From contig JADLKI010000008.1 in NCBI GenBank assembly GCA_015657395.1, positions 42,391 through 54,892 on the forward strand: DNA of 12,502 nt, written 5' to 3'. The stretch is from Spirochaetales bacterium. GTDB lineage: Bacteria; Spirochaetota; Spirochaetia; Treponematales; Rectinemataceae. The notes beneath the pieces are model-generated. The model searched no databases and was not told where the DNA came from. It saw only the letters and a list, made by a program, of their open reading frames with translations. Position numbers and translations under genes: made by a program. The first letter of the stretch is position 1, and each line of letters starts with the position of its first letter. Of this stretch, positions 1-12,502 are shown one piece after another.

Positions 1-408
1 CCCGAGTTCTGCTTCCACTGATACACCATGTTTATGCGCCAAGGCAACCACTTTCTTTGTCTCTGATACATTGTAATCATAGTCCTCGGAAGCCAGATCA
101 ATCATTACACCGGAATAGCCAGCTTCAATGCACTGGCGTGCCTGGGCAAAGCTTTTCCCATGGTCAAGCCCCAAAGCGATTTTGACATCAATCTTTTGAG
201 AAGCCACATCAGCGATAGCTTGCATGAAATCAGCGCCAGCGGAAAGCATATGTGAATAATAAGTTTGTACGATAAGAGGTACACTTCGCTTGTTCGCTGC
301 AGATACTAGCGCTTGGAGGCTCTCCAAGTTGTATGAGTTGAATGCGCCAACTGTGAAATGGTGCTCCCGTGCATACTTCAGTATTTCCACATACGATGTC
401 AATACCAT
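1..408 (-). CDS. Class II fructose/tagatose-bisphosphate aldolase-type protein, N-terminal part
   Basis: Only the first 136 residues are present; the gene runs off the left edge with no stop. The start at 408 has a strong ribosome binding site (aggagga, about 8 bases upstream). The protein opens like the KbaY/GatY/Fba family. LDHG places Asp82 and His83 at the numbering of E. coli tagatose-bisphosphate aldolase, where Asp82 is the catalytic acid and His83 a zinc ligand. Asp104 lies in VMID, and VEAELG carries Glu132 and Glu134, also conserved in the family. These enzymes use zinc to cleave ketose phosphates to dihydroxyacetone phosphate and an aldehyde in the cytoplasm. The usual MIDGS is MIDLA here, and the segment after it (SEDYDYN) is atypical, so a substrate other than fructose bisphosphate is possible. 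It is divergent from the sugar operon but shares promoter elements with it. The remaining zinc histidines lie outside the window. Confidence 0.9.
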   Translation of the reverse strand, partial: MVLTSYVEILKYAREHHFTVGAFNSYNLESLQALVSAANKRSVPLIVQTYYSHMLSAGADFMQAIADVASQKIDVKIALGLDHGKSFAQARQCIEAGYSGVMIDLASEDYDYNVSETKKVVALAHKHGVSVEAELG

Positions 409-476
409 TTTATTATCTCCTCCTAATATAAATGCGTTCTAGATGATCCCTATCTGATATAGCTGCATTGTGATAC

Positions 477-494
477 CTGTCATCCGCATGACAG
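477..494 (-). promoter_or_regulatory. Perfect inverted repeat in the aldolase leader
   Basis: CTGTCAT and ATGACAG (7-bp arms, 4-bp spacer) form an exact palindrome between the predicted aldolase promoter and its start codon. It could be a repressor operator or an mRNA hairpin; the sequence alone does not decide. Confidence 0.45.
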
Positions 495-535
495 CCGTTA
501 TTCACAATAGCCGAGCTGGCTGCGGAGTCGATGTA

Positions 536-555
536 TCAATAATTGTAGGTTATGA
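536..555. promoter_or_regulatory. Imperfect copy of the TCATAACC operator
   Basis: The minus strand reads TCATAACC followed after three bases by a degraded partner arm (AATTATTGA). The perfect version of the same element is at 1781-1799. It overlaps the predicted -10 box of the aldolase promoter. A common regulator is inferred; no regulator gene is in the window. Confidence 0.4.
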
Positions 556-580
556 TATATTATGAGAATTTTCTTGTAAA
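552..580 (-). promoter_or_regulatory. Predicted sigma-70-type promoter of the aldolase gene
   Basis: On the minus strand TTTACA (575-580) and TATCAT (552-557) are 17 bases apart, giving a leader of about 137 bases. The -35 box lies within a 12-mer (minus strand of 575-586) that recurs exactly over the -35 box of the sugar operon promoter. The TCATAACC element (548-555) overlaps the -10 box, a position suited to repression. Confidence 0.55.
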
Positions 581-802
581 ATAGTTTAAATTTATATACT
601 CCATAACTTAAATTCATGCTGGCTGCAGAGGGTAAAGATTTTTATTTCTACCAGTTTTTCATCATCAGGAAGCACGATTCAAGACAAATTGATCTACTTT
701 GATCCGCATTTCCAGCAGATGATCAGCAATACAATGAAAACTTGAACTCCGAGAACCCATATCGGATTACTGAACCGGCAATCATTATTCGCACTGGAAT
801 CA

Positions 803-810
803 TAAAGGTA
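803..810. repeat. Target site duplication, left copy
   Basis: TAAAGGTA directly abuts the left terminal inverted repeat and is repeated exactly at 1506-1513. Eight bp is the usual duplication length for IS1595-family elements. Confidence 0.88.
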
Positions 811-834
811 CCTGATTAGTGTTATAATTCAGCC
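811..834 (+). repeat. Left terminal inverted repeat of the IS1595-family element
   Basis: Starts CCTGATTAGTG and ends TTCAGCC. It matches the reverse complement of 1482-1505 at 20 of 24 positions, with mismatches at positions 12, 13, 16 and 17. Confidence 0.85.
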
Positions 835-901
835 TTTTGGGACATTCTGTGTCCCTGTGGAAGGTGTATACTGATGCTACCCGGGAAGGAGCCAGGTAGC
901 A

Positions 902-1500
902 ATGGCGACAAACAAGATACAATTCCAGAAAGGACTAATGAGGAGGGACGAATACTTGAGGATCGCGTTGAACTTGACGACACCTATCTGGGAGGAGAGC
1001 GTCGGGGAGGGAAAGTCGGAAGGGGTTCGGAGAACAAGGTACCGTTTCTCGCCGCGATACAAACAGATATGAACCATCACCCCCGTTATGTGTATTCTCT
1101 CGTCTCCCGTCTTTTTCATCCGATGAGATAGAGGCATGGGCAGCCAAGCGGCTACAAGCCGGAAGCATTGTAGTTTCCGATGGACTTGCCTGTTTCACCG
1201 CGGTCAAGAGAGCGGGATTTCATCATATGCAAGAGGTTGTAGGGGAAGGAAACAGGAGCACCAACATGGCATGTTTCAAGTGGGTCAATACGATTCTGAC
1301 AAATCTGAAGACCGCTATACTGGGTACCTATCATTCCTTCAACTGCTCCAATATATGCCTACCGCTATCTGGCCGAAGTACAATACCGCTTTAACAGACG
1401 TTTTGATATGGAAGCAATGCTCGTCAGGCTGCTGATTGCCGGTGTCCAAACTTCGATCCGCCCGGAATCGTGGCTCTGTTTGGCTGAAGCATGGCACTAA
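902..1500 (+). pseudogene. IS1595-family transposase remnant
   Basis: The N-terminus begins at 902 with MATNKIQFQKGL, like the usual IS1595 opening, and runs about 20 codons. It then jumps, with a frame change near 961, straight into the DDE domain (VELDDTYLGGER, first Asp), skipping about 100 residues of zinc ribbon and HTH. A second frame change near 1110 leads into a frame with IVVSDGL (second Asp) and KWVNTILTNLKTA, where the family carries Asn as third catalytic residue. A third change near 1345 restores the C-terminus (YRYLAEVQYRFNRRF) to the stop at 1498-1500, which lies inside the right inverted repeat. Family members are usually about 300 residues. The gene is dead: at least two frameshifts plus the internal deletion. 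Confidence 0.87.
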
Positions 1501-1505
1501 TCAGG
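1482..1505 (-). repeat. Right terminal inverted repeat of the IS1595-family element
   Basis: Reverse complement partner of 811-834; the outer 11 bases are identical. It overlaps the transposase stop codon. Confidence 0.85.
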
Positions 1506-1513
1506 TAAAGGTA
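1506..1513. repeat. Target site duplication, right copy
   Basis: TAAAGGTA, identical to 803-810 and directly outside the right terminal repeat. Removing the element and one copy rejoins the original spacer. Confidence 0.88.
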
Positions 1514-1780
1514 TAAACTTTATTTCTTATATATCAAGAAATAACAGACCTATTGAATTGTGAACTATCGAATAAAAGTTGCCGGGGCAGTAATTCAACA
1601 AGCGGTGATTGTCCTTGCCTCAGGAATAGGTGAAATTCAGTCAATTGCAGAGCCTTGCAGCGGAGATCAGAAGAACATTGCCCGTCATTCAGATTATCAT
1701 GCTTCGAAGAAAAACAGTTGGTCATATTCTCTGCATAGCCAGGACTATGTGATACGGCGGAGTTTCTCTTTTGCTATGAA
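1514..1780. other. Intergenic region without a recognisable gene, right of the insertion
   Basis: An open frame runs from a GTG at 1560 to 1799 on the plus strand, and another of 63 codons lies on the minus strand. Neither has a ribosome binding site or a motif that I recognise, and the plus frame ends inside the operator palindrome. I treat the stretch as non-coding, possibly a relic. Confidence 0.5.
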
Positions 1781-1799
1781 TCATAACCTCTGGTTATGA
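1781..1799. promoter_or_regulatory. Perfect palindrome, probable operator of the sugar operon
   Basis: TCATAACC-TCT-GGTTATGA has 8-bp arms around a 3-bp centre and ends 20 bp upstream of the -35 box. The position fits an activator site or one half of a repression loop. A degraded copy sits at the aldolase promoter (536-555). The cognate regulator is not in the window. Confidence 0.55.
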
Positions 1800-1819
1800 C
1801 GAACATGAGAATTAACTAT

Positions 1820-1848
1820 TTTACATTGGTCTTTTTGGGGTATAAAAT
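1820..1848 (+). promoter_or_regulatory. Predicted sigma-70-type promoter of the sugar operon
   Basis: TTTACA (1820-1825) and TAAAAT (1843-1848) are separated by 17 bases, close to consensus. Transcription would begin near 1855 and give a leader of about 130 bases. AACTATTTTACA (1814-1825) occurs identically at the divergent aldolase promoter, and ATGAGAATT (1805-1813) is also shared. Confidence 0.68.
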
Positions 1849-1894
1849 ATTTTTAGATTATACCAGACCGCCTAATGGAATTGGGGGGGCGTAA

Positions 1895-1914
1895 ACAACT
1901 TCTTAATAAGTTGT
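1895..1914 (+). promoter_or_regulatory. Leader hairpin 1
   Basis: ACAACTT and AAGTTGT (7-bp arms, 6-base loop) form a perfect stem in the untranslated leader of the binding-protein mRNA. No U-run follows directly, so it is not an obvious terminator. Confidence 0.4.
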
Positions 1915-1942
1915 GAGTTGCTGTTTTTAAAAGGTGCAATAA

Positions 1943-1962
1943 TCATCCTATCTTGAGGATGA
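1943..1962 (+). promoter_or_regulatory. Leader hairpin 2 next to the ribosome binding site
   Basis: TCATCCT and AGGATGA (7-bp arms, 6-base loop) form a stem ending 8 bases before the AGGAGG ribosome binding site at 1971-1976. It could affect mRNA stability or translation of the binding protein, or be a second protein-binding site. Confidence 0.42.
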
Positions 1963-1983
1963 AAAATTAAAGGAGGATTTGAA

Positions 1984-2928
1984 ATGAAAGAAAAGGGAAA
2001 AACGTGGGTATGCCTAGCCGTGTTCTTGCTTGTTTGTTCCTTTGCGGGCGCCGTGGATACAAAGGCTTCTGGCGGGATTTATGGCATCCTCGTACCGGAC
2101 CTTACGAGCAGTCCTTTCTATAATGCTTGTTTCAATGGCGTTGTAGAAGGTATCAAAAAATTTGACCCCACTGCTTCGTATGTAGTTTATGATTGCGCTT
2201 GGGATCCTGCGAAACAGCTCGACCAGATTGCACAATGCATTCAGCAGAAAGTAAAGGCAATCATAATGATTCCCAATGGATCGAGTGCGGTTCTCTCTGG
2301 GATCAAGGATGCGCAGAAGGCTGGAATTCCTGTATGTGTTCTGGACACTGCTACGACTGATAAAACCTATGTTGCCTCCACTATTGTTTCCAATAACCTG
2401 ATGGCAGGTGAGATATCAGGTGAAGCGATGGTTAGAAGCTTGCCCAATGGAGGAAATGTCGTAATCATTTGCACTCCCGGTAACGAGGTTATCAATCAGC
2501 GGCTTAAGGGCTTCTATTCAAAGATTGCCGGCACTAGAATCAAGGTCGTCCAGGAACTGATCGTCAACAACGGAACTACCGAGGAAGCGCTGACACTCAT
2601 GGAAAACGCATTGTCAAGCATTCCAAACCTCAAAGGTGTCTATACTACAGGAGACACGTTTGCTATCGGTATTGCCGCTGCATTGAGTGCGAATGGTTAT
2701 AAACCCGGAGAAATCGTTGTTTGTTCCACTGATGGCACGGCAAAAGGTGTAGAACTCGTAAAGGAAGGCTGGGTGTATAGTACTGCAGCACAACAGGCAA
2801 GCAAACTGGGTTACCAGAGTGTACAGGCGGCAGTGAAGATTCTCAAAGGAGAAACGGTGGAGAAATATGTCCAACTTGAATGTTTGGACATCACAAAAGA
2901 AAATGCCGCTTCTTACAGTGCTTTCTGA
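1984..2928 (+). CDS. Periplasmic sugar-binding protein of an ABC transporter (ribose/RbsB type)
   Basis: 314 residues, normal for the family. Residues 1-23 form a signal peptide: a Lys-rich start, a hydrophobic core and a likely signal peptidase I site after AGA, so the mature protein is periplasmic. The rest follows the periplasmic-binding-protein type 1 fold: an opening strand with LVPDLTSSPFY, LDQIAQCIQQKVKAIIMIP, a central hinge, and the C-terminal block STDGTAKGVELVKEGW. It should capture the sugar and deliver it to the permease. The start at 1984 has AGGAGG 7 bases upstream. It is first in the operon and followed by a long stem-loop, an arrangement that commonly gives more binding protein than membrane components. 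The ligand cannot be read from sequence. The catabolic genes downstream suggest a monosaccharide, perhaps a deoxysugar, pentose or polyol-related sugar. Confidence 0.9.
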   Translation: MKEKGKTWVCLAVFLLVCSFAGAVDTKASGGIYGILVPDLTSSPFYNACFNGVVEGIKKFDPTASYVVYDCAWDPAKQLDQIAQCIQQKVKAIIMIPNGSSAVLSGIKDAQKAGIPVCVLDTATTDKTYVASTIVSNNLMAGEISGEAMVRSLPNGGNVVIICTPGNEVINQRLKGFYSKIAGTRIKVVQELIVNNGTTEEALTLMENALSSIPNLKGVYTTGDTFAIGIAAALSANGYKPGEIVVCSTDGTAKGVELVKEGWVYSTAAQQASKLGYQSVQAAVKILKGETVEKYVQLECLDITKENAASYSAF

Positions 2929-2949
2929 TTTTCTCGATTGATTAACCAG

Positions 2950-2998
2950 CTGAAAGGTCCGTCGTCAGCAAATCGGCTTAATGCGACGGGCCTTTCAG
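2950..2998 (+). promoter_or_regulatory. Long intercistronic stem-loop between binding-protein and ATPase genes
   Basis: Arms at 2950-2964 and 2984-2998 pair over 15 positions, with one T-G wobble and a 19-base loop. No clean U-run follows, so it is more likely an mRNA-stabilising or partial attenuation structure than a full terminator. It would favour the upstream binding-protein message. Confidence 0.65.
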
Positions 2999-3050
2999 GT
3001 TGAAAATTATACTTTCTGTATATGGAATTTATTCAATTAGGATATTTGTC

Positions 3051-4553
3051 ATGGATGATGCTGATCAATACATCTTGCAAATGGAGCATATCAGTAAATA
3101 TTTCCCTGGCGTTCGCGCGTTGGATGATGTGCACTTCGGCGTGAGGCTTGGAGAAATTCACGGTCTTGTTGGCGAGAACGGCTCAGGAAAGTCGACGTTG
3201 ATTAAAGTGCTGACCGGTATTTATCATCCGGACGATGGTAAGATTTTATTTGATAATAAAGAAATAGAGATTGAAAGTGTTGATAGAGCCCGGTCTCTGG
3301 GCATCGCCGTCATACATCAGGAATTAAGTATGGCCGGCAATATGACTGTGGCTGAAAATATCTTTATGGGAAGATTCCCCATCAAGAAAAGGAGTTTCTT
3401 CGTTGACGTAGCGAAAATGGAGGAAGAAACAACAAGGTTGCTGAATCTGATCGGCCTGGATGAAGTCCGGCCGGATACTTTGGTGAAGACCTTGAATATA
3501 GCCCGGCAGCATATGGTGGAAATATGCCGCGCATTATCTCAGAACGCCAGATTGTTGGTAATGGACGAACCGACAGCGTCACTGTCAAATAAGGAAACAG
3601 AAACACTGCTTGATATCATGTGCCGATTAAAATCGGAAGGTGTTTCAATTTTGTTTGTTTCTCATAAATTAAACGAAATCTATAAGGTTTGCGATCGGAT
3701 TACTGTTTTGCGTGATGGGCAATATGTGGGAACTGAGAAATCCACGGATCTGGAATATGACCGCTTGATAAACATGATGGTTGGGCATGAAATCTCTACG
3801 ATTTTTCCGCAGCATGACACACAGCCGGGAGAGAAATTCTTTGAAGCTAATCATATTCAGTCTGCCCGGGTAAATGATGTCAGTTTCTATCTGCGAAAAG
3901 GAGAGATATTAGGTTTTTATGGTCTTGTCGGTGCTGGCAGATCAGAAGTGTTTCGGGCATTATTTGGCATTGATAAAAATATCAAAGGTGACATTTGGCT
4001 TGATGGAAAGAATCTTAAGATTAATTCTCCGGTGGACGCAGTAAATGCTCGTATAGTCTTTGCTCCTGAGAACAGGAAACTGGAAGGATTGATTCTCAAG
4101 CAGACAGTCGATTTTAACATAACAATTTCGATTTTGAAGACTCTTATTCATGGATTCAGTCTGAATAAGAAATTGAATGAAAAGATAGTATCTGGTATTG
4201 GGTCAAAGCTAAAGATAAAAACACCATCATTTGATGCGAAAGTAGCCAATCTCTCCGGTGGCAATCAGCAAAAGGTTGTGTTGGCCAAATGGCTGGTCAC
4301 CAACCCCAAAATACTCATATTGGATGAAGCAACAAGAGGCATTGATGTAGGTGCCAAACTGGAGATCTATCACCTCGTTTATGAGATCGTAAAAATGGGA
4401 GTGAGTGTTATCTTCATTTCCTCAGAAATGCCGGAAATCATAAATATGTGCGATAGGGTCTATATAATGAATCAAGGTGAAATAGTAGCCACTGTAGATA
4501 GGCAATACTTGACCGAAGAAACACTTGTTAAATATGCGCTGGGAGGACAATGA
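3051..4553 (+). CDS. Sugar ABC transporter ATP-binding protein, two-domain (RbsA type)
   Basis: 500 residues, the usual size for tandem-ATPase RbsA/MglA/XylG proteins. The first cassette has Walker A GENGSGKST (41-49), a degenerate signature around LNIARQHMVEIC (148-159) and Walker B LLVMDEP (168-174). The second has a degenerate Walker A (GLVGAGRSE, 291-299), signature LSGGNQQ (401-407) and LILDEATRG (422-430). A degenerate second P-loop is normal for this family. The protein powers import through the permease from the cytoplasmic face. I chose ATG 3051, with AGGA about 8 bases upstream. A TTG at 3000 in the same frame lies at the end of the stem-loop, has no ribosome binding site and adds 17 residues absent from relatives. 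The stop overlaps the permease start. Confidence 0.93.
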   Translation: MDDADQYILQMEHISKYFPGVRALDDVHFGVRLGEIHGLVGENGSGKSTLIKVLTGIYHPDDGKILFDNKEIEIESVDRARSLGIAVIHQELSMAGNMTVAENIFMGRFPIKKRSFFVDVAKMEEETTRLLNLIGLDEVRPDTLVKTLNIARQHMVEICRALSQNARLLVMDEPTASLSNKETETLLDIMCRLKSEGVSILFVSHKLNEIYKVCDRITVLRDGQYVGTEKSTDLEYDRLINMMVGHEISTIFPQHDTQPGEKFFEANHIQSARVNDVSFYLRKGEILGFYGLVGAGRSEVFRALFGIDKNIKGDIWLDGKNLKINSPVDAVNARIVFAPENRKLEGLILKQTVDFNITISILKTLIHGFSLNKKLNEKIVSGIGSKLKIKTPSFDAKVANLSGGNQQKVVLAKWLVTNPKILILDEATRGIDVGAKLEIYHLVYEIVKMGVSVIFISSEMPEIINMCDRVYIMNQGEIVATVDRQYLTEETLVKYALGGQ

Positions 4554-5593
4554 TTATGTTTGAGAGGATGTTTTTGGGGAGAAAAAGCACATTTCTTCGG
4601 GATAACGGTGGCATCCTGATTGGTTTGATCGTACTTTCCACAATTATTGCTATTGTTCAACCCAGTTTCCTGGCTTCAAAAAATATCTTTAATATTCTCC
4701 GTTCGATATCGACAATGGGAATCATCGGTTTTGGGATGACTCTCTGTATCATTATCAATGGAATTGATCTTTCCCAGGGCTCCGTAATAGGGCTGTCCGC
4801 ATGTTTCTGTGCCATGTTAATCAGCAATTTGCATTTACCTTTTGGTGTCGGGATCATTGGAGGAATTGCTGCCGGTACGTTGATGGGCGGCATCAATGGA
4901 TTCATTCTTTGCAGAACAACTATGCCCCCTTTCATTGTTACGCTCTCAACGCAGTTGATCGCCCGTGGTCTTTGTTATGTGATCACAATGGGAAATATGA
5001 TATATGTGAGTCCTTCTTTCAGTATATATGGCAACGGGTATTTATTTGAAGTAATCCCTTATCCAGTAATCTATCTCTTTATCATTTTCATAGCAATGTA
5101 TCTCTTGCTCGCCAAATCAAGACTTGGCCGTAATATATATGCCATCGGAGGAAATATAGAAGCCGCCCGTTTCTCCGGTATCAATATCAAAAAAACCACA
5201 TGGATTGTCTATACGGTTTCAGGTACGCTCGCGGGCATCTGCGGTATCATCGCTTGCTCACGTGTTGCACAGGGATCCCCGATTACAGGAAATGCCATGG
5301 AGTTTGATGCGGTTGCAGCCGCATATTTGGGGGGGATCAGTTACCTGGGAGGAGAGGGGAAAATAGGAAGTACCTTAATCGGAGCAATTGTCCTTGGCGT
5401 AGTAGCAAATGGCATGAGTATGTTGCTGGTCCCTTGGTATATTCAATCGATCGTAAAAGGATTAATCATTCTCGGTGCTGTATATTTTGATGTTACCAGG
5501 AAGAGGAAGGAAGCAGAATTACCCATCCGGAAACGGGAAACACAAAAGGAATTAGAAAAGAATCCGCAGACAACGCAAACAATTCAAGGATGA
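4550..5593 (+). CDS. Sugar ABC transporter permease (RbsC type)
   Basis: 347 residues of strongly hydrophobic sequence with many membrane helices, matching the BPD_transp_2 permeases of ribose/xylose/galactose importers. NGIDLSQGSVIGL (family GGIDLSVGS) marks the N-terminal half. GGNIEAARFSGINIKKT is the cytoplasmic loop that contacts the ATPase. AAAYLGGISYLGGEGKIGSTLIGA is the conserved C-terminal block. The last 35 residues form a charged cytoplasmic tail. ATG 4550 overlaps the ATPase stop (ATGA), which implies translational coupling. The in-frame ATG at 4556 sits at better spacing from GGGAGG and could be the real start, giving 345 residues. It probably works as a homodimer. Only one permease gene is present. 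Confidence 0.92.
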   Translation: MIMFERMFLGRKSTFLRDNGGILIGLIVLSTIIAIVQPSFLASKNIFNILRSISTMGIIGFGMTLCIIINGIDLSQGSVIGLSACFCAMLISNLHLPFGVGIIGGIAAGTLMGGINGFILCRTTMPPFIVTLSTQLIARGLCYVITMGNMIYVSPSFSIYGNGYLFEVIPYPVIYLFIIFIAMYLLLAKSRLGRNIYAIGGNIEAARFSGINIKKTTWIVYTVSGTLAGICGIIACSRVAQGSPITGNAMEFDAVAAAYLGGISYLGGEGKIGSTLIGAIVLGVVANGMSMLLVPWYIQSIVKGLIILGAVYFDVTRKRKEAELPIRKRETQKELEKNPQTTQTIQG

Positions 5594-5597
5594 AACA

Positions 5598-6785
5598 ATG
5601 AATAGCCAATTAATCAGAAAAACATTTGATGAGGGAAAAGGGATTTTCCTTATGTGCCCTAATTGGATTCCAAGGGCCTTGCTGGAACCAGGCAAAAGGT
5701 TGCGGTTGCTCGCCGACGATTACAGCCGACTTGGTTTGAAACGTGGCTACATTTGTGAGAGATGGTTTTCCGCCACGGAGAAAGCAGAAACAGGACCTGA
5801 GGCACCAGAAGATGAAGGGTTGAGTTATATCTATAGCAATGGCACGAGACTTCTTTTCAAGGATTGCGTCGCAGTGTTGGGTTCGGATTTGATCGGGAGA
5901 GAAATCTGGGAACAATATCACCGATGGCCGGTGTTTTCAAAGTTCTTTGATTATAAGTGTACATCCTTTCATCATTTGCATCATAAGGAAAAAGATGCGG
6001 CGCTTGTAGGGTTACAAAGCAAACCCGAGGCGTATTATTATCCTGCGGAGATGAATCTTTCCTTGGACAGTGCACCCGTTACATATTTTGGATTTGATCC
6101 GAGTGTCACTAAAGAGGAAATCATTGGCCGGCTCAGTCAATTCGAGAATCATGAAAACAGGTTAACCGAACTTTCCAGAGCTTTCCGACTGGAACTTGGA
6201 ACTGGTTGGTACACACCGCCAGGCGTATTACATGCATGCGGGTCATTGTGCACATATGAACCTCAATGGATGAGTGAATCCTGTTCTTTATGGGAAAATC
6301 ATACACCTGGTGGTTCTATCGTTCCTTACGATGAGTTCGCTGGTAAAGTTCCAGAAAATAAGAGAAGGGATTTGGAGTATTTGTACAACTTGATGGATAT
6401 CGAAGCGAATTTCGATCCTGATTATCGGAAGAAGTATTTTAGAAGACCTGTTATTGAGATAGAGGATAAGTACTATACGCAAAAATGGATCACCTATGGC
6501 AACCCATTTTTTGCCGCGAAAGAATTACGCATCCAGCCAGGACAGACAGTTGTTGTCAAAGATAACGCAGCTTATGGATGCATTCTGATCCAAGGGCATG
6601 GACGTTTTGGCGTGTTCCAAGCTGAAGCACCGAATGTGATTCGCTTTGAGGAACAAACTTATGATGAATTCTTTGTAAGTGAAAGATCTGCACGGGAAGG
6701 TGTCAGGATCGAGAATAATTCACATCAAGAGTTTGTTATGCTTAAACACTTTTGCCATAACGTTAATGCACCTTCCGGAAATTAA
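5598..6785 (+). CDS. Large cupin protein, phosphomannose isomerase-like; probable sugar isomerase
   Basis: 395 residues, not a named family that I can assign. The central part looks like a metal-binding cupin related to class I mannose-6-phosphate isomerase: SFHHLHHKEKDAALVG (123-138), SKPEAYYYPAEMN (141-153) and TPPGVLHACGSLCTYEPQW (206-224). Likely metal ligands are His126, His128, Glu144 and His212. A second, weaker cupin-like unit covers about 295-385 (FFAAKELRIQPGQTVVV to the C-terminus). No signal peptide, so cytoplasmic. It sits between transporter and kinase, the place an aldose-ketose isomerase such as RhaA or FucI would occupy, and no such isomerase is present. I infer an aldose-ketose isomerase, by analogy with cupin-type D-lyxose and mannose-6-phosphate isomerases. 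Epimerase or mutarotase activity, or a regulatory role, remains possible. Start 5598 has AAGGA 7 bases upstream and follows the permease stop by 4 bases. Confidence 0.8.
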   Translation: MNSQLIRKTFDEGKGIFLMCPNWIPRALLEPGKRLRLLADDYSRLGLKRGYICERWFSATEKAETGPEAPEDEGLSYIYSNGTRLLFKDCVAVLGSDLIGREIWEQYHRWPVFSKFFDYKCTSFHHLHHKEKDAALVGLQSKPEAYYYPAEMNLSLDSAPVTYFGFDPSVTKEEIIGRLSQFENHENRLTELSRAFRLELGTGWYTPPGVLHACGSLCTYEPQWMSESCSLWENHTPGGSIVPYDEFAGKVPENKRRDLEYLYNLMDIEANFDPDYRKKYFRRPVIEIEDKYYTQKWITYGNPFFAAKELRIQPGQTVVVKDNAAYGCILIQGHGRFGVFQAEAPNVIRFEEQTYDEFFVSERSAREGVRIENNSHQEFVMLKHFCHNVNAPSGN

Positions 6786-6820
6786 ATCGGAATTAATCGA
6801 ACGGGAAGTTGGAGTCGGGC

Positions 6821-8299
6821 ATGAATAGACATATCGCAGTTGATATCGGCGCCGATTCTGGAAGAGTTATTGCCGGCTGGCTTGAAGATGGGAAATTGGT
6901 CATGCAAGAACTGCATCGGTTTCCAACCCAAGATTTCTATCTGCAAGGGAGACGTCAACGCAACCTATATCGTTGGTATGAAGAGATATTGCATGGTCTG
7001 AGCATCTACGTTCAAAAGTTCGGTCACGACTTGGGGAGTATCGGAGTCAATGCAATGGGACATGAATATGTCTTGCTGGATGAAAAAGGGGGAATCAGGG
7101 CTTTGCCTGTTTCATATCGTGATTCTTCATTTGAAGAATTGCAGCTTGATGAATTATTAGAAAAAAAAATAGATCTGCGCATGGTTTATATGATTACAGG
7201 CAACCAATCAGCGAAAGCAGATACACTTAATCGCATCTTGATACAGCAGAGAGATGAATCAGTTGATTTCACCCACAGTAAAGGCATTCTGTTTCTACCT
7301 GATGCAATGCACTATATGTTGGGAGCAATGCCGTGCTGTGAAATGTCATCAGCATCATATTCAAGATTGCTTGACCAGCGTGCATATATATGGAGCAAGG
7401 AAATATTTGATGTTCTTGCTATTGATCGCTCATTGATGAGCGATCTAGTTTGGGCTGGCGACACTATTGGAATCATCGATGAGGGTATCTGCAGACAGTT
7501 AGGTTTACCAATTGGAATAAAAATAATTACCCCGTGCGGACATGATACTGCAGATGCAATGCTGTGTGTACCGAATATTGATAAGGATTGCGCATTCATC
7601 AGCAGCGGTACTTGGAGCCTTATAGGTTTAGGAACAGAAAAACCTGTTATCACAGAACAGACATTTAAGATACATGCGTCAAATTCAACCACAGGATTTG
7701 GAATGAACATGCTTAAAAAGAATGTATCCGGGATGTGGATGATTCAATGCTGTCGGCGAGAATGGGGTGGAATTTCATATCCGGAAATCATTGATATGGC
7801 CAGGAGAGTAAATATAAATGATCTGACAATAGATGTGGATGCTTTAAAATTCCAATATGCGCATAATATTCCCACGATTCTTGCCAGCGATGTGAAGGAC
7901 CGCTATGGAGTGGATATCAGCCCGAACAATATAGGACAAATTTCACGCATAATCTTTGAAAGCATGGCATTCAAGGATAGATATATGCTTGATAGATTGC
8001 TAAGTGCAATTGATAGAGAAGTATCTTGTATTTATATAGTGGGAGGGGGCGCACAGAATGAATTACTGAATCAATTAATTGCTAACATAACAGGCCTGAC
8101 CGTTTATGCCGGCGCTTTTGAGGCAACTTCGATGGGGAACATATTATTGCAGGCATATGGCTGCAAAGAAATTAATGGAAGAAATGACCTGATGGAAATC
8201 GCTTCTTCTTCTGCCAATTATAAACGTTTCATGACGCAGGATATTGAGGTATGGGGAGAAAGGTATAGAAAGTTCCTCGGAGATCATGATCTCGAATAA
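6821..8299 (+). CDS. FGGY-family carbohydrate kinase, rhamnulokinase-like
   Basis: 492 residues, the expected size. The N-terminal ATPase-fold phosphate loop is VDIGADSGR (7-15). NAMGHEYVLLD (77-87) follows the family pattern. GHDTADAM (240-247) carries the probable catalytic base Asp242. SSGTWSLIGLG (261-271) and NVSGMWMIQ (301-309) are close to the rhamnulokinase pattern. GGGAQNELLNQLIA (408-421) is the adenosine-binding segment. The enzyme should use ATP to phosphorylate a ketose, most likely at C1, producing the substrate for the aldolase encoded next. ATG 6821 is preferred over the in-frame TTG at 6809 because GGAG lies 6 bases upstream and the first strand then starts as in relatives. 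The precise ketose is unknown: rhamnulose, fuculose, ribulose, xylulose and others are phosphorylated by this family. Confidence 0.88.
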   Translation: MNRHIAVDIGADSGRVIAGWLEDGKLVMQELHRFPTQDFYLQGRRQRNLYRWYEEILHGLSIYVQKFGHDLGSIGVNAMGHEYVLLDEKGGIRALPVSYRDSSFEELQLDELLEKKIDLRMVYMITGNQSAKADTLNRILIQQRDESVDFTHSKGILFLPDAMHYMLGAMPCCEMSSASYSRLLDQRAYIWSKEIFDVLAIDRSLMSDLVWAGDTIGIIDEGICRQLGLPIGIKIITPCGHDTADAMLCVPNIDKDCAFISSGTWSLIGLGTEKPVITEQTFKIHASNSTTGFGMNMLKKNVSGMWMIQCCRREWGGISYPEIIDMARRVNINDLTIDVDALKFQYAHNIPTILASDVKDRYGVDISPNNIGQISRIIFESMAFKDRYMLDRLLSAIDREVSCIYIVGGGAQNELLNQLIANITGLTVYAGAFEATSMGNILLQAYGCKEINGRNDLMEIASSSANYKRFMTQDIEVWGERYRKFLGDHDLE

Positions 8300-8347
8300 G
8301 TCTGGTTAATGCATATTGAATATAAATGATAAAGGAGGAGAAACGGA

Positions 8348-9097
8348 ATGTATTTATCTGAAACAATTGCAAGAAAAATGATTTGTGATATCGGAAAAAA
8401 AATGTATAGCAAGAACTTTGTATCTGCAAATGATGGCAACATTACCATCAGAATAGCAGATAACGTCCTCTTGGTTACTCCAACAGGAATAAGCAAAGGG
8501 GATTTAACTGAGAGTATGTTGATAAAAGTAGATTTGGATGGCCGGATTATCGAAGGTGATTACAAGCCTACATCGGAACTGTCTATGCATTTGCAGGTCT
8601 ATAAAGAGAACGATGCAATTCAATCAACTTGCCATGCACATTGTCCACACCTCACCGCATTGGCAGTTGCTGGCATTGAACTTGATGTGCCTACAAGTGC
8701 TGCAGCCAGCGGCCTCGTCGGTAGAATTCCTGTTGCACCCTATCAATGCCCCGGGTCAAAAGAACTTGCGAATTCCATCATTCCTTATGTAAAAGACTAC
8801 AATATCGTCAATCTAGGTAATCATGGCCCGCTCTCTTGGGGAACAGATCCGATGGGTGCGTGGTATATAATGGAATCTGCAGAGAGTGCATGTGAATTGG
8901 CTTTTAATATTAAGAAATATTTAGATGGTAAGGTTCGCCCTCTCACAATAAAGCAGACAGAAGAGCTGTTTGCTTTCCATCATGTAAAAAGAAGCTCTGC
9001 CGCATGGCTGACTTGTCCAAATACGACGGACAATCAGGAGCCAGCGGTCTCATTTTCAAGCTATTTTGATATCAAACTTGGAATTGATAATGCCTGA
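8348..9097 (+). CDS. Class II aldolase (FucA/RhaD/AraD family), ketose-phosphate aldolase
   Basis: 249 residues with the family's zinc site intact. NDGNITIRI (28-36) and TPTGISKGDL (45-54) form the phosphate-binding region. Glu77 in TSELSMH is the likely catalytic residue. His96 and His98 in CHAHCP and His159 in GNHG are the zinc ligands, each shifted by four from E. coli FucA numbering. The expected reaction is reversible cleavage of a ketose 1-phosphate to dihydroxyacetone phosphate and an aldehyde (lactaldehyde or glycolaldehyde in known cases). A ribulose-5-phosphate 4-epimerase activity (AraD type) cannot be excluded, but pairing with a rhamnulokinase-like enzyme favours the aldolase. 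The start has a strong AGGAGG site (8335-8340). The stop lies inside a small hairpin (9093-9107). Confidence 0.88.
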   Translation: MYLSETIARKMICDIGKKMYSKNFVSANDGNITIRIADNVLLVTPTGISKGDLTESMLIKVDLDGRIIEGDYKPTSELSMHLQVYKENDAIQSTCHAHCPHLTALAVAGIELDVPTSAAASGLVGRIPVAPYQCPGSKELANSIIPYVKDYNIVNLGNHGPLSWGTDPMGAWYIMESAESACELAFNIKKYLDGKVRPLTIKQTEELFAFHHVKRSSAAWLTCPNTTDNQEPAVSFSSYFDIKLGIDNA

Positions 9098-9107
9098 CGG
9101 AGTCAGG
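9093..9107 (+). repeat. Small inverted repeat over the aldolase stop codon
   Basis: CCTGAC-GGA-GTCAGG, 6-bp arms with a 3-base loop; the TGA stop lies in the left arm. No U-run follows. It is the first of three inverted repeats before the RpiB-like gene. Confidence 0.4.
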
Positions 9108-9129
9108 ACTGGACCGGGGAATGGGAGTA

Positions 9130-9146
9130 TTTGTTCATAGAACAAA
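9130..9146. promoter_or_regulatory. Perfect palindrome upstream of the RpiB-like gene
   Basis: TTTGTTC-ATA-GAACAAA has 7-bp arms and a 3-bp centre. The symmetry and odd spacer resemble a helix-turn-helix operator more than a stable hairpin. It suggests separate control of the last gene. Confidence 0.4.
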
Positions 9147-9162
9147 GGGAAATGTTTTAGTT

Positions 9163-9183
9163 TTCTCATTCGACGGATGAGAA
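9163..9183. promoter_or_regulatory. Inverted repeat containing the shared ATGAGAATT 9-mer
   Basis: TTCTCAT and ATGAGAA (7-bp arms, 7-bp centre). The right arm begins ATGAGAATT (9177-9185), also found at the aldolase promoter (562-570) and the sugar operon promoter (1805-1813). I found no confident -35/-10 pair here, so whether this is an internal promoter region is open. Confidence 0.4.
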
Positions 9184-9229
9184 TTGTAGAGTACAGGGGC
9201 AAAACAAAGACAAGCGGAGGAAAACAGGT

Positions 9230-9697
9230 ATGAAAGTGGCATTAGGTGCGGATGGTTCTGGGTTCGAATTGAAACAGGCGATAAAAGAGGATTTGGAAAA
9301 GAAAGGATATGAGATTGTCGATACAAATCCGGACGCTCCTGTTTATTATGCAAAAGCAGCGTTAGCTGTTGCTGGATTGGTCCAGAAAAAGACGGTGGAC
9401 CGAGGCATAATAATGTGTGGGACGGGTATGGGCCTTAGTATCATAGCGAATAAGCACAAAGGTGTTTATGCCGCATTATGTGAAAGTACATATACCGCAC
9501 GTCGTGCACGGGTTGTTAACAACACCAATGTCCTGTGCATGGGAGGATTTGTAGTTGGGAAGGTCTTGGCTGTTGAAATGGCAAATGCTTGGTTGGAAGC
9601 TGATCATTTGAATGGTCTGGATCCCAAAACCAGGTCGGTCGTTGAGCATGAATTTGATTCGATAGTTGAATATGAGCAGATAGCATACAAGAATTGA
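9230..9697 (+). CDS. RpiB/LacAB-family sugar-phosphate isomerase
   Basis: 155 residues, full length for the family. The N-terminal strand has Asp8 (GADGSGFELK). Cys63 and the anion-hole loop follow in MCGTGMGLSIIANK (62-75), and NNTNVLCMGGFVVG (97-110) is the conserved second half. Cys63 corresponds to the catalytic base Cys66 of E. coli RpiB. Two residues tied to ribose 5-phosphate are missing: Gly9 stands where RpiB has His10, and Val96 where it has the ring-opening His99. That pattern resembles my recollection of erythrulose-4-phosphate isomerases (DerI/EryI), whose substrate cannot cyclise. I infer an aldose-ketose phosphate isomerase for an open-chain substrate, such as a tetrose phosphate, and doubt a housekeeping RpiB role. 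It has a good GGAGG site but follows a 132-base gap rich in inverted repeats, so it may be partly uncoupled from the upstream genes. Confidence 0.88.
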   Translation: MKVALGADGSGFELKQAIKEDLEKKGYEIVDTNPDAPVYYAKAALAVAGLVQKKTVDRGIIMCGTGMGLSIIANKHKGVYAALCESTYTARRARVVNNTNVLCMGGFVVGKVLAVEMANAWLEADHLNGLDPKTRSVVEHEFDSIVEYEQIAYKN

Positions 9698-9738: not shown

Positions 9739-9794
9739 CCCCAGACCGATACATTGTTCTCTAACATCACTGTAAGAGAGGAGCCTATACTACC

Positions 9795-10262
9795 TCACGG
9801 TCCCTCGGGACCTATAGGAACTACCGGCGCGTCCACCGGCACCCTGTACAGGCGATAGGATTCTCCAAGATCCACAATATCCACAAAATCCTCTGGCTTC
9901 ACACTCTCGAAATACAGTGAGTTACCGCCTTTGCTATAGACAACGACCAAAGACCCTGGTATTGAAGTTTCATCTCTTGTTTCCCATTGACCTTCGAAAA
10001 TAAATTGGTAGCCTTCCCGGGTATATGATGTCACACTGAATTTCACTGAAGAAACTATAATGTAGGGCTGTTTTGCTCCAAGGTCTATTATCACCACGTC
10101 GTTATCAATAGGATTTTCTCCCCAGGAAAACATTTTCGTCTTTGTCATATCAACCCCCTGAATAGACCATACCCCTGAAGGATTGATCTGAGGTTGATCG
10201 GCAAAGGCAATTATACAAAGCATCATAAGAAAGATAAAAATGAAAAAACTTGATCGCTTCAT
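9795..10262 (-). CDS. Small secreted hypothetical protein
   Basis: 155 residues from the ATG at 10262, which has a GAAGGG ribosome binding site and follows the upstream stop by 11 bases. A longer frame opening at 10337 would overlap the previous gene heavily and bury the signal peptide, so I rejected it. Residues 1-21 are a signal peptide (KR, then a Phe/Ile-rich core, with a likely cut after AFA). The mature part has many alternating hydrophobic stretches, suggesting a beta-rich fold. It contains NPSGVWSIQGVDM early and ends in a Pro/Gly-rich tail (VVPIGPEGP). No family recognised. It is last in a three-gene minus-strand cluster with a membrane protein and a penicillin-binding-like protein, so an envelope role is plausible but unproven. 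Confidence 0.75.
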   Translation of the reverse strand: MKRSSFFIFIFLMMLCIIAFADQPQINPSGVWSIQGVDMTKTKMFSWGENPIDNDVVIIDLGAKQPYIIVSSVKFSVTSYTREGYQFIFEGQWETRDETSIPGSLVVVYSKGGNSLYFESVKPEDFVDIVDLGESYRLYRVPVDAPVVPIGPEGP

Positions 10263-10273
10263 GTTTTCCCTTC

Positions 10274-10960
10274 TCACAGCACATGACTGCACAAGGACTC
10301 CAGAACCGCACAGAAGAACAACAGCAGAATGCAGCATACATGCATCCCCTTCAAACGATCCTCGCGCAGATACTCTGAAATCATCTTTTTAGAAGCACCT
10401 TCCCGCTTGAGCCCTCTATATCCCCTGATCGTTGCAAGTACTTCTTTCGTACACACCAGAATCCAGAACAGGTTAACTGTCAGTTCGACAACCGCGTATA
10501 CCACCCACACCACCATCCTCAGGGTAGCCTGGGCAGAAAAGGCTGTTGCCGATGCTTTGAAAAAGAGCGAGATCTCCATGCCTAAGCCAGGAATAGCAGG
10601 TGACTTCACTATGTATTGATAGAAAAAGATCAGCGGCATAATAAGCATATACGCAAAGAAGCGATTCATCACAAAAACCAAGGTATTCCATACCCAGATG
10701 ATTATTAGATCGATAATGACCAGAACTCCAATAGGTAATTTTATATCCAGAAAGAGTGATTCTGTTCTTGCGGGGGGCAGGTTGTGGGCCTGGTAGAAAT
10801 CGTTTCTGGACTCGAAGGTGTTGGAGAAACTAAAAAATACGATTGTCACCACGACGATGAAGAGTGCGATGAACAGGAATGTCTTTTCGCGCCAGACTTC
10901 ATTGGCGCTCGCCTTCAATTTCCCGAGGAAATTCACAGCGCCTCTCTCTATGATAATCAT
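10274..10960 (-). CDS. Multi-pass membrane protein of unknown function
   Basis: 228 residues from ATG 10960. Hydrophobic segments lie at about 28-44, 76-97, 100-118, 148-170 and 206-224, so about five helices. A basic stretch at 178-204 (RGYRGLKREG...KK) is probably cytoplasmic. No family or catalytic motif recognised. The ATG at 10960 has no clear ribosome binding site. A GTG at 10936 has GAGAGAGG just upstream and would give a 220-residue protein starting at NFLGKL, which may be the true start. It lies 30 bases after the stop of the beta-lactamase-fold gene and 11 bases before the secreted protein gene, so the three are probably co-transcribed. Confidence 0.75.
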   Translation of the reverse strand: MIIIERGAVNFLGKLKASANEVWREKTFLFIALFIVVVTIVFFSFSNTFESRNDFYQAHNLPPARTESLFLDIKLPIGVLVIIDLIIIWVWNTLVFVMNRFFAYMLIMPLIFFYQYIVKSPAIPGLGMEISLFFKASATAFSAQATLRMVVWVVYAVVELTVNLFWILVCTKEVLATIRGYRGLKREGASKKMISEYLREDRLKGMHVCCILLLFFCAVLESLCSHVL

Positions 10961-10990: not shown

Positions 10991-12502
10991 TTACGGACCG
11001 GGCTTGGCAAAACCAATGCTCACTGCCCCGGAAGGATCGATCAGTACTTGCCTGTTGAAGAATGCCGATCCGTCGTCGCAGAGTATGCCGGCGGCTGTCG
11101 GCGACGAATCCAGAAGGAGGTATTCTTTCATATCGCCGCCGCTGATCGTGAAGTATTGGCCGTGCGAGGCGATTACCCAGAAGTCGGACCAGCCGCCGGA
11201 CGATTCGGGGTCCGTCCTGTATATCCCTTCTCGGGGAGGGACAATAAAGGAATAGTGTGTGAATGAGGGTCTCCGCATGAGCGCTTCCGCCCCCGTATTC
11301 CATCGTATCAGGAAACTCGCACTGTCGATTACTTTCAATTCCCTGAATTCGTTGTCCGTCGTGGGCAGAAACGATTCGCCCGCAGAAAAGGCAAACTCGG
11401 AATAGGCTCCATTACACTGCAGTGTGACGAGATTGTTCCCGACGCCGACAATCGCCACTCCCTGGGGGGAGGCATAGAGCCCCGGCTGCGGCGATACATT
11501 TGCAGGAATTTCCCTGACTTCCGGTCTGGAAAACGACGGCAGAGCAATCTTGAATTGCTCTTCGATGTACCGCTTCAAAATCTTGATCCCTATGTCCCGG
11601 AGCGCATTGATGCCCCATTGGTCATAGATATTGCCCGCGAGGACTATCCCCACTTTTTGATTCCGCGCGAGAATGACCACGACACGGTGCGATAGATACG
11701 ATCCTTCCGCCCAGGCTACCTTACCGAGGTAATCGAGAGAAGGCTCGGTCAGAATCCAGCCTTCGCCCGATTCGTAGCCCTGTCTATTCAGTTGCCCCGC
11801 GATTGCGGGAGAAAACGGCGCTTCTGAATCTATCGCCCTCTTTTCTTTCGTCCGGTCTTCGTTCCCCGCTCTCAACAGGTACGAGTAGCATTGCACCAGA
11901 TCGGAAAGTGTCGAGCGCATGGAAAAAAACGGGTCGAGGTAATTGTACATATCGGAGCTTGAGTCCAGGAACGGCTCTCCGCCGACATGATAGAACCTGC
12001 TTTTTTCCGGAGGCGTAGAGTCCTTTCCGAAACTTGAGGCGACCATTCCGAGCGGCCCGTATACTTCGTCCCGGACATAGCTGTCGAAAGGCCTGCCGCT
12101 CGTTTTTTCGACGAGCAGACCCAAAACATCCATCATGAGCGCGGATTCCGATCTCCGCACGCCTTCCGGAAACCGGTTTTTTGCGTTGGAGAGACGCTTC
12201 ATCAGGCTGTCCGCGTCGAGTATCCCATCCATGTTCGGCATCGGCCGGTCGGCATAGCCGCTCGCTCCGGCAAGCAGCGAACGTATTTTCAGCCTGCCGA
12301 TTCTCTCCGCATTGGCGTTCGCGCCCGAAAACAGTTCCGGCAGGTATCGGAAAACAGGCGCGTCGATATCGATTTTCCCCTGTGCGCACAGTGTCCGTAC
12401 GGCAAGGATGGTGAACTGTCCCGATAGTTCCCCTATATGAATTTCGGTGTTTTCATCGAATGCAATTCGATTGTCCCCGCCACTGCTCCGATAGCGCCAA
12501 AG
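10991..12502 (-). CDS. Beta-lactamase/PBP-fold protein, catalytically degenerate, 5' end missing
   Basis: The frame is open from the stop at 10991 to the right edge, giving 503 visible residues; the true start lies beyond the window. An internal Met at 12241 is not the start, because the family's first motif region lies upstream of it. The pattern is the serine beta-lactamase-like hydrolase fold: IGELSGQFTILAV (visible residues 23-35), GKIDIDAPVFRYLPE, LLAGASGYAD, and LLVEKTSGRPF with GPLGM. Each catalytic motif is altered. SxxK reads ELSG (12419-12430), YxN reads ESA (12140-12148), and the third motif (HxG/KTG) reads WAE (about 11705-11715). About the last 215 residues form a separate beta-rich C-terminal part without a recognised domain. 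I infer a non-catalytic binding or scaffold protein of the envelope. The region is visibly richer in GC than the sugar operon. Confidence 0.82.
   Translation of the reverse strand, partial: LWRYRSSGGDNRIAFDENTEIHIGELSGQFTILAVRTLCAQGKIDIDAPVFRYLPELFSGANANAERIGRLKIRSLLAGASGYADRPMPNMDGILDADSLMKRLSNAKNRFPEGVRRSESALMMDVLGLLVEKTSGRPFDSYVRDEVYGPLGMVASSFGKDSTPPEKSRFYHVGGEPFLDSSSDMYNYLDPFFSMRSTLSDLVQCYSYLLRAGNEDRTKEKRAIDSEAPFSPAIAGQLNRQGYESGEGWILTEPSLDYLGKVAWAEGSYLSHRVVVILARNQKVGIVLAGNIYDQWGINALRDIGIKILKRYIEEQFKIALPSFSRPEVREIPANVSPQPGLYASPQGVAIVGVGNNLVTLQCNGAYSEFAFSAGESFLPTTDNEFRELKVIDSASFLIRWNTGAEALMRRPSFTHYSFIVPPREGIYRTDPESSGGWSDFWVIASHGQYFTISGGDMKEYLLLDSSPTAAGILCDDGSAFFNRQVLIDPSGAVSIGFAKPGP

Follow-up and report, generated by a model that had tools for sequence, protein, structure and literature searches.

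Organization of the locus

The window, by which we mean the whole stretch of 12,502 nts analysed here (G000:C4:42391-54892), is part of a 3.03 Mb assembly in 21 contigs from a Spirochaetales bacterium. In Table 1, we report its genes and features.

Table 1. Genes and other features of the window.
Feature	Position	Strand	Best evidence
FBA, class II FBA/GatY-type aldolase, 5' part	1..408	-	PF01116, E 9.7e-40
IS1595-type transposase remnant, outside the pathway	874..1500, right end approximate	+	PF12762, E 2.7e-7, on ORF 874-1131
SBP, sugar ABC substrate-binding protein	1984..2928	+	PF13407, E 1.3e-51, 176 bits
Sugar ABC ATPase, two ABC domains	3000..4553, start uncertain, read from 3048	+	PF00005, twice
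Sugar ABC permease	4550..5593	+	PF02653, E 7.8e-38, 131 bits
CUP, PMI-fold bicupin, predicted free aldose-ketose isomerase	5598..6785	+	
RHK, RhaB-like FGGY kinase, predicted ketose-1-kinase	6809..8299, read from 6821	+	TIGR02627, 284.1 bits
ALD2, class II aldolase/adducin family, FucA/OtnC-like	8348..9097	+	PF00596, 151 bits
RPIB, RpiB-fold protein, predicted second isomerase	9230..9697	+	PF02502, 142 bits

The seven genes from SBP to RPIB form a plus-strand row with intergenic gaps of -4 to 132 bp. FBA is divergent from the importer, and the approximately 1.6 kb between them contain the transposase remnant, in which the ORF at 1136-1435 has no match at E ≤ 0.1. The window edge cuts FBA; the whole gene, of 280 codons, is found at 13957-14799 of L007, a stretch that reaches past the window, and it has one ambiguous base (N) just beyond the window. 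Past FBA, outside the window, are a 511-codon FGGY kinase on the same strand (FGGY2) and a LysR regulator on the opposite strand. The GC content, in 1-kb steps, is 0.39-0.47 across the operon versus 0.51-0.55 from position 10501 on, and horizontal gain of the locus is likely. No riboswitch or other known RNA is found at Rfam gathering scores.

An earlier note on this DNA had named a set of sugar genes, and our ORFs and Pfam/NCBIfam searches place all of them at about the positions it gave; the Pfam family matches, judged from the sequences, are strong, and chance is excluded. Its list of enzymes stands, and it misses FGGY2, which lies outside the window. The note had also proposed a logic like that of rhamnose and fucose operons with a cupin protein in place of RhaA or FucI, and we do find importer, isomerase, kinase and aldolase all present in order, with the cupin protein at that place. 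It knew of no described operon with this set, and our searches of the open-access literature aimed at such a gene set gave no description of one.

The cupin protein CUP

The predicted fold of CUP is the two-cupin fold of phosphomannose isomerases (PMI). No Pfam or NCBIfam model matches it at E ≤ 0.001, and no Pfam model even at E ≤ 1. Between them, 32 members of the CUP family match 7 Pfam families, none of which is a PMI model, and by curated models CUP itself is not within the PMI or the cupin D-lyxose isomerase families. The HxH, KxE and His metal and catalytic set of cupin D-lyxose isomerase is present in CUP, where H126, H128, K142, E144 and H212 are kept in 120/120 homologues listed of 4552 matches. 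The first metal-site residue of PMI is presumably a Gln, and CUP has a His at that position. The roles of the residues in the lyxose isomerase set are described in PMC8378251.

We took the CUP loci from titled genome records for the best 80 of 560 relatives. A longer overlapping ORF displaced CUP in 12 of these loci, which leaves 68 in the ORF set, and the CUP tree took all 80. Relatives at E ≤ 1e-100 are found in 18 of 392 genomes of the phylum of the window, its own genome included, the others with at most 51% identity; among 58 relatives, the highest identity to CUP is 52%. In several phyla, genes for ketose kinases and for sugar importers adjoin those of the family. The main CUP branch adjoins LyxK-type and UlaE-type genes (both types together in 21/80 loci), and the branch of the window is accompanied by FGGY2 and aldolases. 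By Fisher tests, p is 9.9e-5 with FGGY2/FBA types, 0.014 with LyxK and 0.097 with UlaE, values that are a guide only because the counts ignore relatedness of the loci and contig ends. The family has 4552 scored matches and no fitting Pfam model for the 32 members tried, so that a single good assay would be enough to assign it a first function.

Kinases and aldolases

The best NCBIfam model for RHK is the rhamnulokinase TIGR02627, with a score below the cut-off (284.1 versus 527.95 bits). In a tree with reference kinases, RHK pairs with E. coli RhaB (support 0.997), and FucK comes next (0.981). FGGY2 and the FGGY kinase of a Lachnospiraceae locus described below (L009) are sisters (0.998), with an uncertain placement near XylB/AraB (support 0.74-0.80), and the best NCBIfam model for FGGY2 is xylulokinase (234.5 bits, cut-off 380). 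XylB and AraB are 5-kinases. A His-Asp pair of RhaB and FucK is present in both RHK and FGGY2, and absent in XylB, LyxK, AraB and LsrK. Since RhaB and FucK are C1 kinases, phosphorylation at C1 by RHK and FGGY2 is the favoured reading. In the phylum, 3 of 383 genomes have an RHK relative at E ≤ 1e-70, namely the genome of the window and two others at 31-33% identity.

FBA has the fold family and the catalytic residues of the fructose/tagatose-bisphosphate aldolases (FBA, GatY, KbaY): Asp82, His83, Glu134, His180, His208 and Asn230 (GatY numbering) are kept in 120/120 homologues listed of 2295 matches. For each of the 21 NCBIfam models listed, the whole protein scores under the cut-off (for example, 241.2 versus 423 bits and 211.4 versus 215.6 bits). 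The Arg of DPR, which we take to be the 6-phosphate binder, is absent in FBA and kept in one of the 120 listed homologues. E. coli FbaA, GatY and KbaY have this Arg, as does the C16 enzyme of the same genome; E. coli YdjI, which carries the annotation of a 1-phosphate aldolase, lacks it. A term search of PMC5434028, PMC8119897 and PMC11907403 gave no 6-phosphate role for this residue. The DPR arginine is not a clean switch, because it is missing as well from the FBA-type genes at six further CUP loci (L010, L042, L050, L078, L079 and L086), two of them (L050 and L078) with a PfkB kinase nearby, and from the third FBA of the same genome (C4:598934). FBA relatives at E ≤ 1e-75 are found in 5 of 397 Lachnospiraceae genomes and in 1 of 341 genomes of the class. 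In one locus of the FBA family (L160), which has an importer of another type, an aldehyde dehydrogenase and an iron alcohol dehydrogenase adjoin FBA, and we count them in favour of a putative release of free aldehyde by FBA. An automatic name such as "fructose-bisphosphate aldolase" probably misnames the 120 listed FBA homologues at least.

In ALD2, TSE, CHAH and NHG align to FucA, with the aldolase-type Glu and the HxH and His of the metal site kept; AraD and SgbE have Asp in place of the Glu. The roles of the FucA-type Glu, HxH and His are here our assumption. ALD2 has 66.2 bits with the FucA model TIGR01086 (cut-off 400.25), and its best model is OtnC, a 3-oxo-tetronate-4-P decarboxylase (NF043034), at 125.5 bits and under the cut-off of 250.

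The RpiB-fold protein RPIB

RPIB passes the cut-off of the RpiB/LacA/LacB superfamily (TIGR00689, 116 bits, cut-off 88.3) and falls under those of ribose-5-phosphate isomerase B (TIGR01120, 118.4 bits, cut-off 138.65) and of the D-erythrulose-4-phosphate isomerase DerI (NF051858, 102.8 bits, cut-off 240). In RpiB, the phosphate is anchored by His11/Arg137/Arg141 with Arg113 and the ring opened by His102 according to PMC4783025, and by Arg130/Arg134/Arg39/His9 and His96, respectively, according to PMC3755991. RPIB has no equivalents of H10, H99, R110, R133 and R137 (E. coli numbering). In the 120 homologues listed of 312, the GTG loop always has its Cys and Thr, and the other positions have changed: His99 to V/I (119/120), Arg83 to Y (119/120), Arg110 to F/M/Y (119/120), Arg133 to L/F/I (115/120) and His10 to P/G/R (91/120). 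As a control, the second, ordinary RpiB of the genome, on C8, keeps DH, the ring-opening His and the GRH motif. Because of this control, and because the phosphate anchors and the ring-opening His are missing, RPIB is unlikely to be a ribose-5-phosphate isomerase, and the automatic name "ribose-5-phosphate isomerase B" is probably a misnomer for its 120 listed homologues at least. Arg92, invariant in all 120, could be a candidate new anchor.

RPIB relatives at E ≤ 1e-45 are found in 7 of 397 Lachnospiraceae genomes. The six stretches fetched besides L009 (L149-L154) have no CUP match, and therefore RPIB is not tied to CUP; an ORF filter had hidden RPIB in L149 and L153, and the check was rerun without it. 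In L149-L152, the importer is of the ABC type, has two permeases and is accompanied by SIS-domain genes (Pfam-checked in L149, L151 and L152), to which L152 adds YdjH- and SgbH-like genes. RPIB adjoins an AlsE-like epimerase gene in L150 and L152, and with such a neighbour a phosphosugar role of RPIB is possible. The surroundings are different in L153 and L154, with two FBA-type genes approximately 4 kb away in L153, and there is no sugar operon around a Proteus relative.

These residues bear on the explanation that the earlier note gave for its two extra enzymes, RPIB and FBA, in which an aldolase releases a phosphorylated tetrose or a further bisphosphate is cleaved. That explanation is not supported, with 119 of the 120 listed FBA homologues without the DPR arginine and RPIB without phosphate-anchoring and ring-opening residues. 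Stated as a route, there would be two phosphorylations, after which FBA gives DHAP and a phosphorylated aldehyde that is isomerised by RPIB. The two FGGY kinases, the membership of FBA in the bisphosphate aldolase family PF01116, and the FBA-type and PfkB genes that accompany CUP relatives in L050 and L078 agree with such a route, but the residue losses in FBA and RPIB count against it, as does the absence of a YdjH-type (PfkB) match at E ≤ 1e-5 in the ORFs of the window, L007, L008 and L009, and we consider it quite improbable.

A pathway for tetroses or tetruloses is hardly probable either. CUP and RPIB would then act on C4 sugars, with RPIB a DerI/EryI-like erythrulose-phosphate isomerase feeding erythrose-4-phosphate. 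RPIB has indeed lost the ring-opening His (V) as have EryI/DerI-type proteins (S), OtnC is the best-scoring model for ALD2, and a CUP search of plasmids has one remote match (28%), on an Arthrobacter plasmid beside DhaK-, RpiB- and TIM-like genes. However, RPIB does not reach the DerI cut-off, R110 is kept in 3/3 and R133 in 2/3 of the EryI/DerI-type references where RPIB has neither, and the kinds of TIM and DhaK tried have no match in the window, L007, L008 or L009.

Conservation of the gene set

Conservation had been put forward as a check by neighbourhood analysis, and it holds in part: importer, CUP, RPIB, FBA and FGGY2 recur in one of the 80 CUP loci, and RHK is absent there. This locus, L009, is from an uncultured Lachnotalea (Lachnospiraceae) and has the five parts in one row on one strand, with identities to the window of 53% (SBP), 67% (ATPase), 72% (permease), 73% (CUP), 79% (RPIB), 64% (FBA) and 42% (FGGY2). 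A FucA-type aldolase is found alongside, divergent and 35% identical to ALD2, so that both kinds of aldolase are there too, and a LyxK-type kinase and a UlaE-type gene are added downstream. Beyond L009, the other fetched CUP loci also have no RHK relative, apart from a RhaB in L029 and L167, which are one and the same genomic stretch. Among the 80 best CUP loci of 560 relatives and the window, the five parts are together in two genomes only. A hint that the families co-occur more widely comes from metagenome homologues, where the longest contig is equally long for P0005 (CUP) and P0332 (FBA), at 11393, and for P0122 (RPIB) and P0287 (FBA), at 14552.

Members of the RPIB and FBA families are also found at loci that have no CUP. 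In three Lachnospiraceae loci (L160-L162), FBA is accompanied by an FGGY kinase, and neither CUP nor RPIB has a match; in L162, at a contig end, FBA and FGGY2 follow an importer of the same type, with its ATPase read in two pieces. Such loci, together with the opposite strands in the window and the transposase remnant in between, would suit two unrelated operons that are merely neighbours, with FBA-FGGY2 and the plus-strand set serving different sugars. We regard this as unlikely, given the single same-strand row of L009 and the same importer type adjoining FBA-FGGY2 in L162.

Proposed pathway

Our main reading, with a probability of roughly 0.6, is a catabolic locus, probably horizontally acquired, in which a ketose-1-phosphate route breaks down a free monosaccharide that is rare and probably has five or six carbons. 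The ABC importer, going by its family, would take up an aldose, and CUP, a metal cupin by its predicted fold and its metal set, would convert the unphosphorylated aldose into a ketose. RHK and FGGY2, by their likeness to RhaB and FucK, would phosphorylate the ketose or ketoses at C1. The family memberships of ALD2 and FBA, which have two different folds, suggest that they split the ketose-1-phosphates into DHAP and an unphosphorylated aldehyde; we infer the position of the phosphate in their substrate because the DPR arginine is missing. RPIB would most likely be a second isomerase with a substrate other than an ordinary phosphosugar and, more speculatively, may let a C2-epimeric aldose feed into the same ketose. 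The two kinase/aldolase pairs would probably serve two ketose stereoisomers taken up by one importer, which is also speculative.

Several observations go against the ketose-1-phosphate route. FucO-, YdjJ-, YdjG- and Arthrobacter ADH-type dehydrogenases or reductases are absent from the window, L007, L008 and L009. FGGY2 groups near 5-kinases and has xylulokinase as best NCBIfam model. RHK is not shared with L009, in which the divergent ALD2 is just 35% identical. The absence of DPR is not a clean switch, RPIB and FBA are seen without CUP, and the five-part set is limited to two genomes.

A more specific form of the pathway is doubtful. It would have two arms, in which PMI-fold and phosphate-site-less RpiB-fold isomerases of free sugars bring two C2-epimeric aldoses to one ketose, and FBA-type and FucA-type aldolases have complementary stereochemistry, for a sugar without a described catabolic route.

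Comparison with known systems

The sulfofucose pathway of PMC12421959 is a different pathway from the present one. With type I phosphomannose isomerase and D-lyxose isomerase, CUP has the PMI fold in common and, with the latter, the HxH-KxE-H metal and catalytic set, but the identity is only 12-17% in structural alignments, there is no Pfam model for CUP, and CUP is longer than the single-cupin D-lyxose isomerase. RPIB shares the fold family and the Cys/Thr GTG loop with RpiB/LacAB and EryI/DerI isomerases, whereas their known phosphate anchors and ring-opening His are missing. Genes of the L-xylulose route (LyxK, SgbU/UlaE, SgbE/AraD) adjoin the main CUP branch; the window, L007 and L008 have no UlaE- or AraD-type best match, whereas L009 has a UlaE-type gene. 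E. coli ydjHI, annotated as a kinase and an L-glycero-L-galacto-octuluronate-1-phosphate aldolase (NC_000913.3), has in common with the locus a DPR-less FBA-fold aldolase adjoining a sugar kinase, but that kinase is YdjH where ours is FGGY, and no isomerase gene is annotated in the E. coli stretch. With E. coli rhaBAD and fucAOPIK, the locus shares an isomerase, a kinase of the RhaB/FucK kind and a class II aldolase yielding DHAP; it differs in having CUP for RhaA or FucI, a second kinase, an FBA-type aldolase and RPIB, and an ABC importer where E. coli has symporters. As far as the sequences indicate, the system operates in the manner of the rhamnose and fucose pathways, with enzymes that by curated scores belong to neither.

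Flanks of the operon and sugar-pathway content of the genome

With 14 matches to FGGY_N and three to class II FBA over its 3 Mb, the source genome is rich in sugar pathways. The beta-lactamase-family gene at the right edge of the window has a GC content of 0.51-0.55, above that of the operon, and the 180- and 228-codon ORFs have no match in the Pfam search.

Features flanking the operon and further CUP genes
Feature	Position	Strand	Remark
IS1595-type transposase remnant, broken	window 874-1500		between divergent operons
Two ORFs, 180 and 228 codons	window 9795-10960	minus	mutually overlapping
Beta-lactamase-family protein (PF00144)	window 10991-12502	minus	continues past right edge
PIN-domain protein (PF01850)	L007 (source genome, wider stretch) 9749-10162	minus	left of LysR gene
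Second CUP paralogue, 44%	L163 (source genome, contig C3) 8926-10098		same genome as window
Remote CUP, 28%	L136 (Arthrobacter plasmid) 7962-9167		annotated hypothetical

Relatives of CUP and RPIB in other sugar loci

For the main branch of CUP, the PMI-fold bicupin, we predict an L-lyxose- or L-xylose-type isomerase, with L-xylulose as the product that is fed onward, because the genes that adjoin it, in the best 80 of 560 relatives, include LyxK-type kinases (29/80 loci), UlaE/SgbU-like epimerases (22/80) and AraD/SgbE (11/80). LyxK- and UlaE-like genes also adjoin the paralogue on contig C3, an arrangement resembled by that in a congener (L164).

Four Lachnospiraceae stretches with relatives of RPIB, the RpiB-fold protein, are candidates for a further unassigned sugar route. 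Besides SIS-domain genes, these stretches (L149-L152) hold a sugar ABC importer that has two permeases; AlsE-like genes adjoin RPIB in L150 and L152, the latter additionally with YdjH- and SgbH-like genes.

The remote CUP of the Arthrobacter plasmid has genes for an importer, an alcohol dehydrogenase and a DhaK-type kinase nearby, together with RpiB- and TIM-like genes; this set would be tetritol-like.
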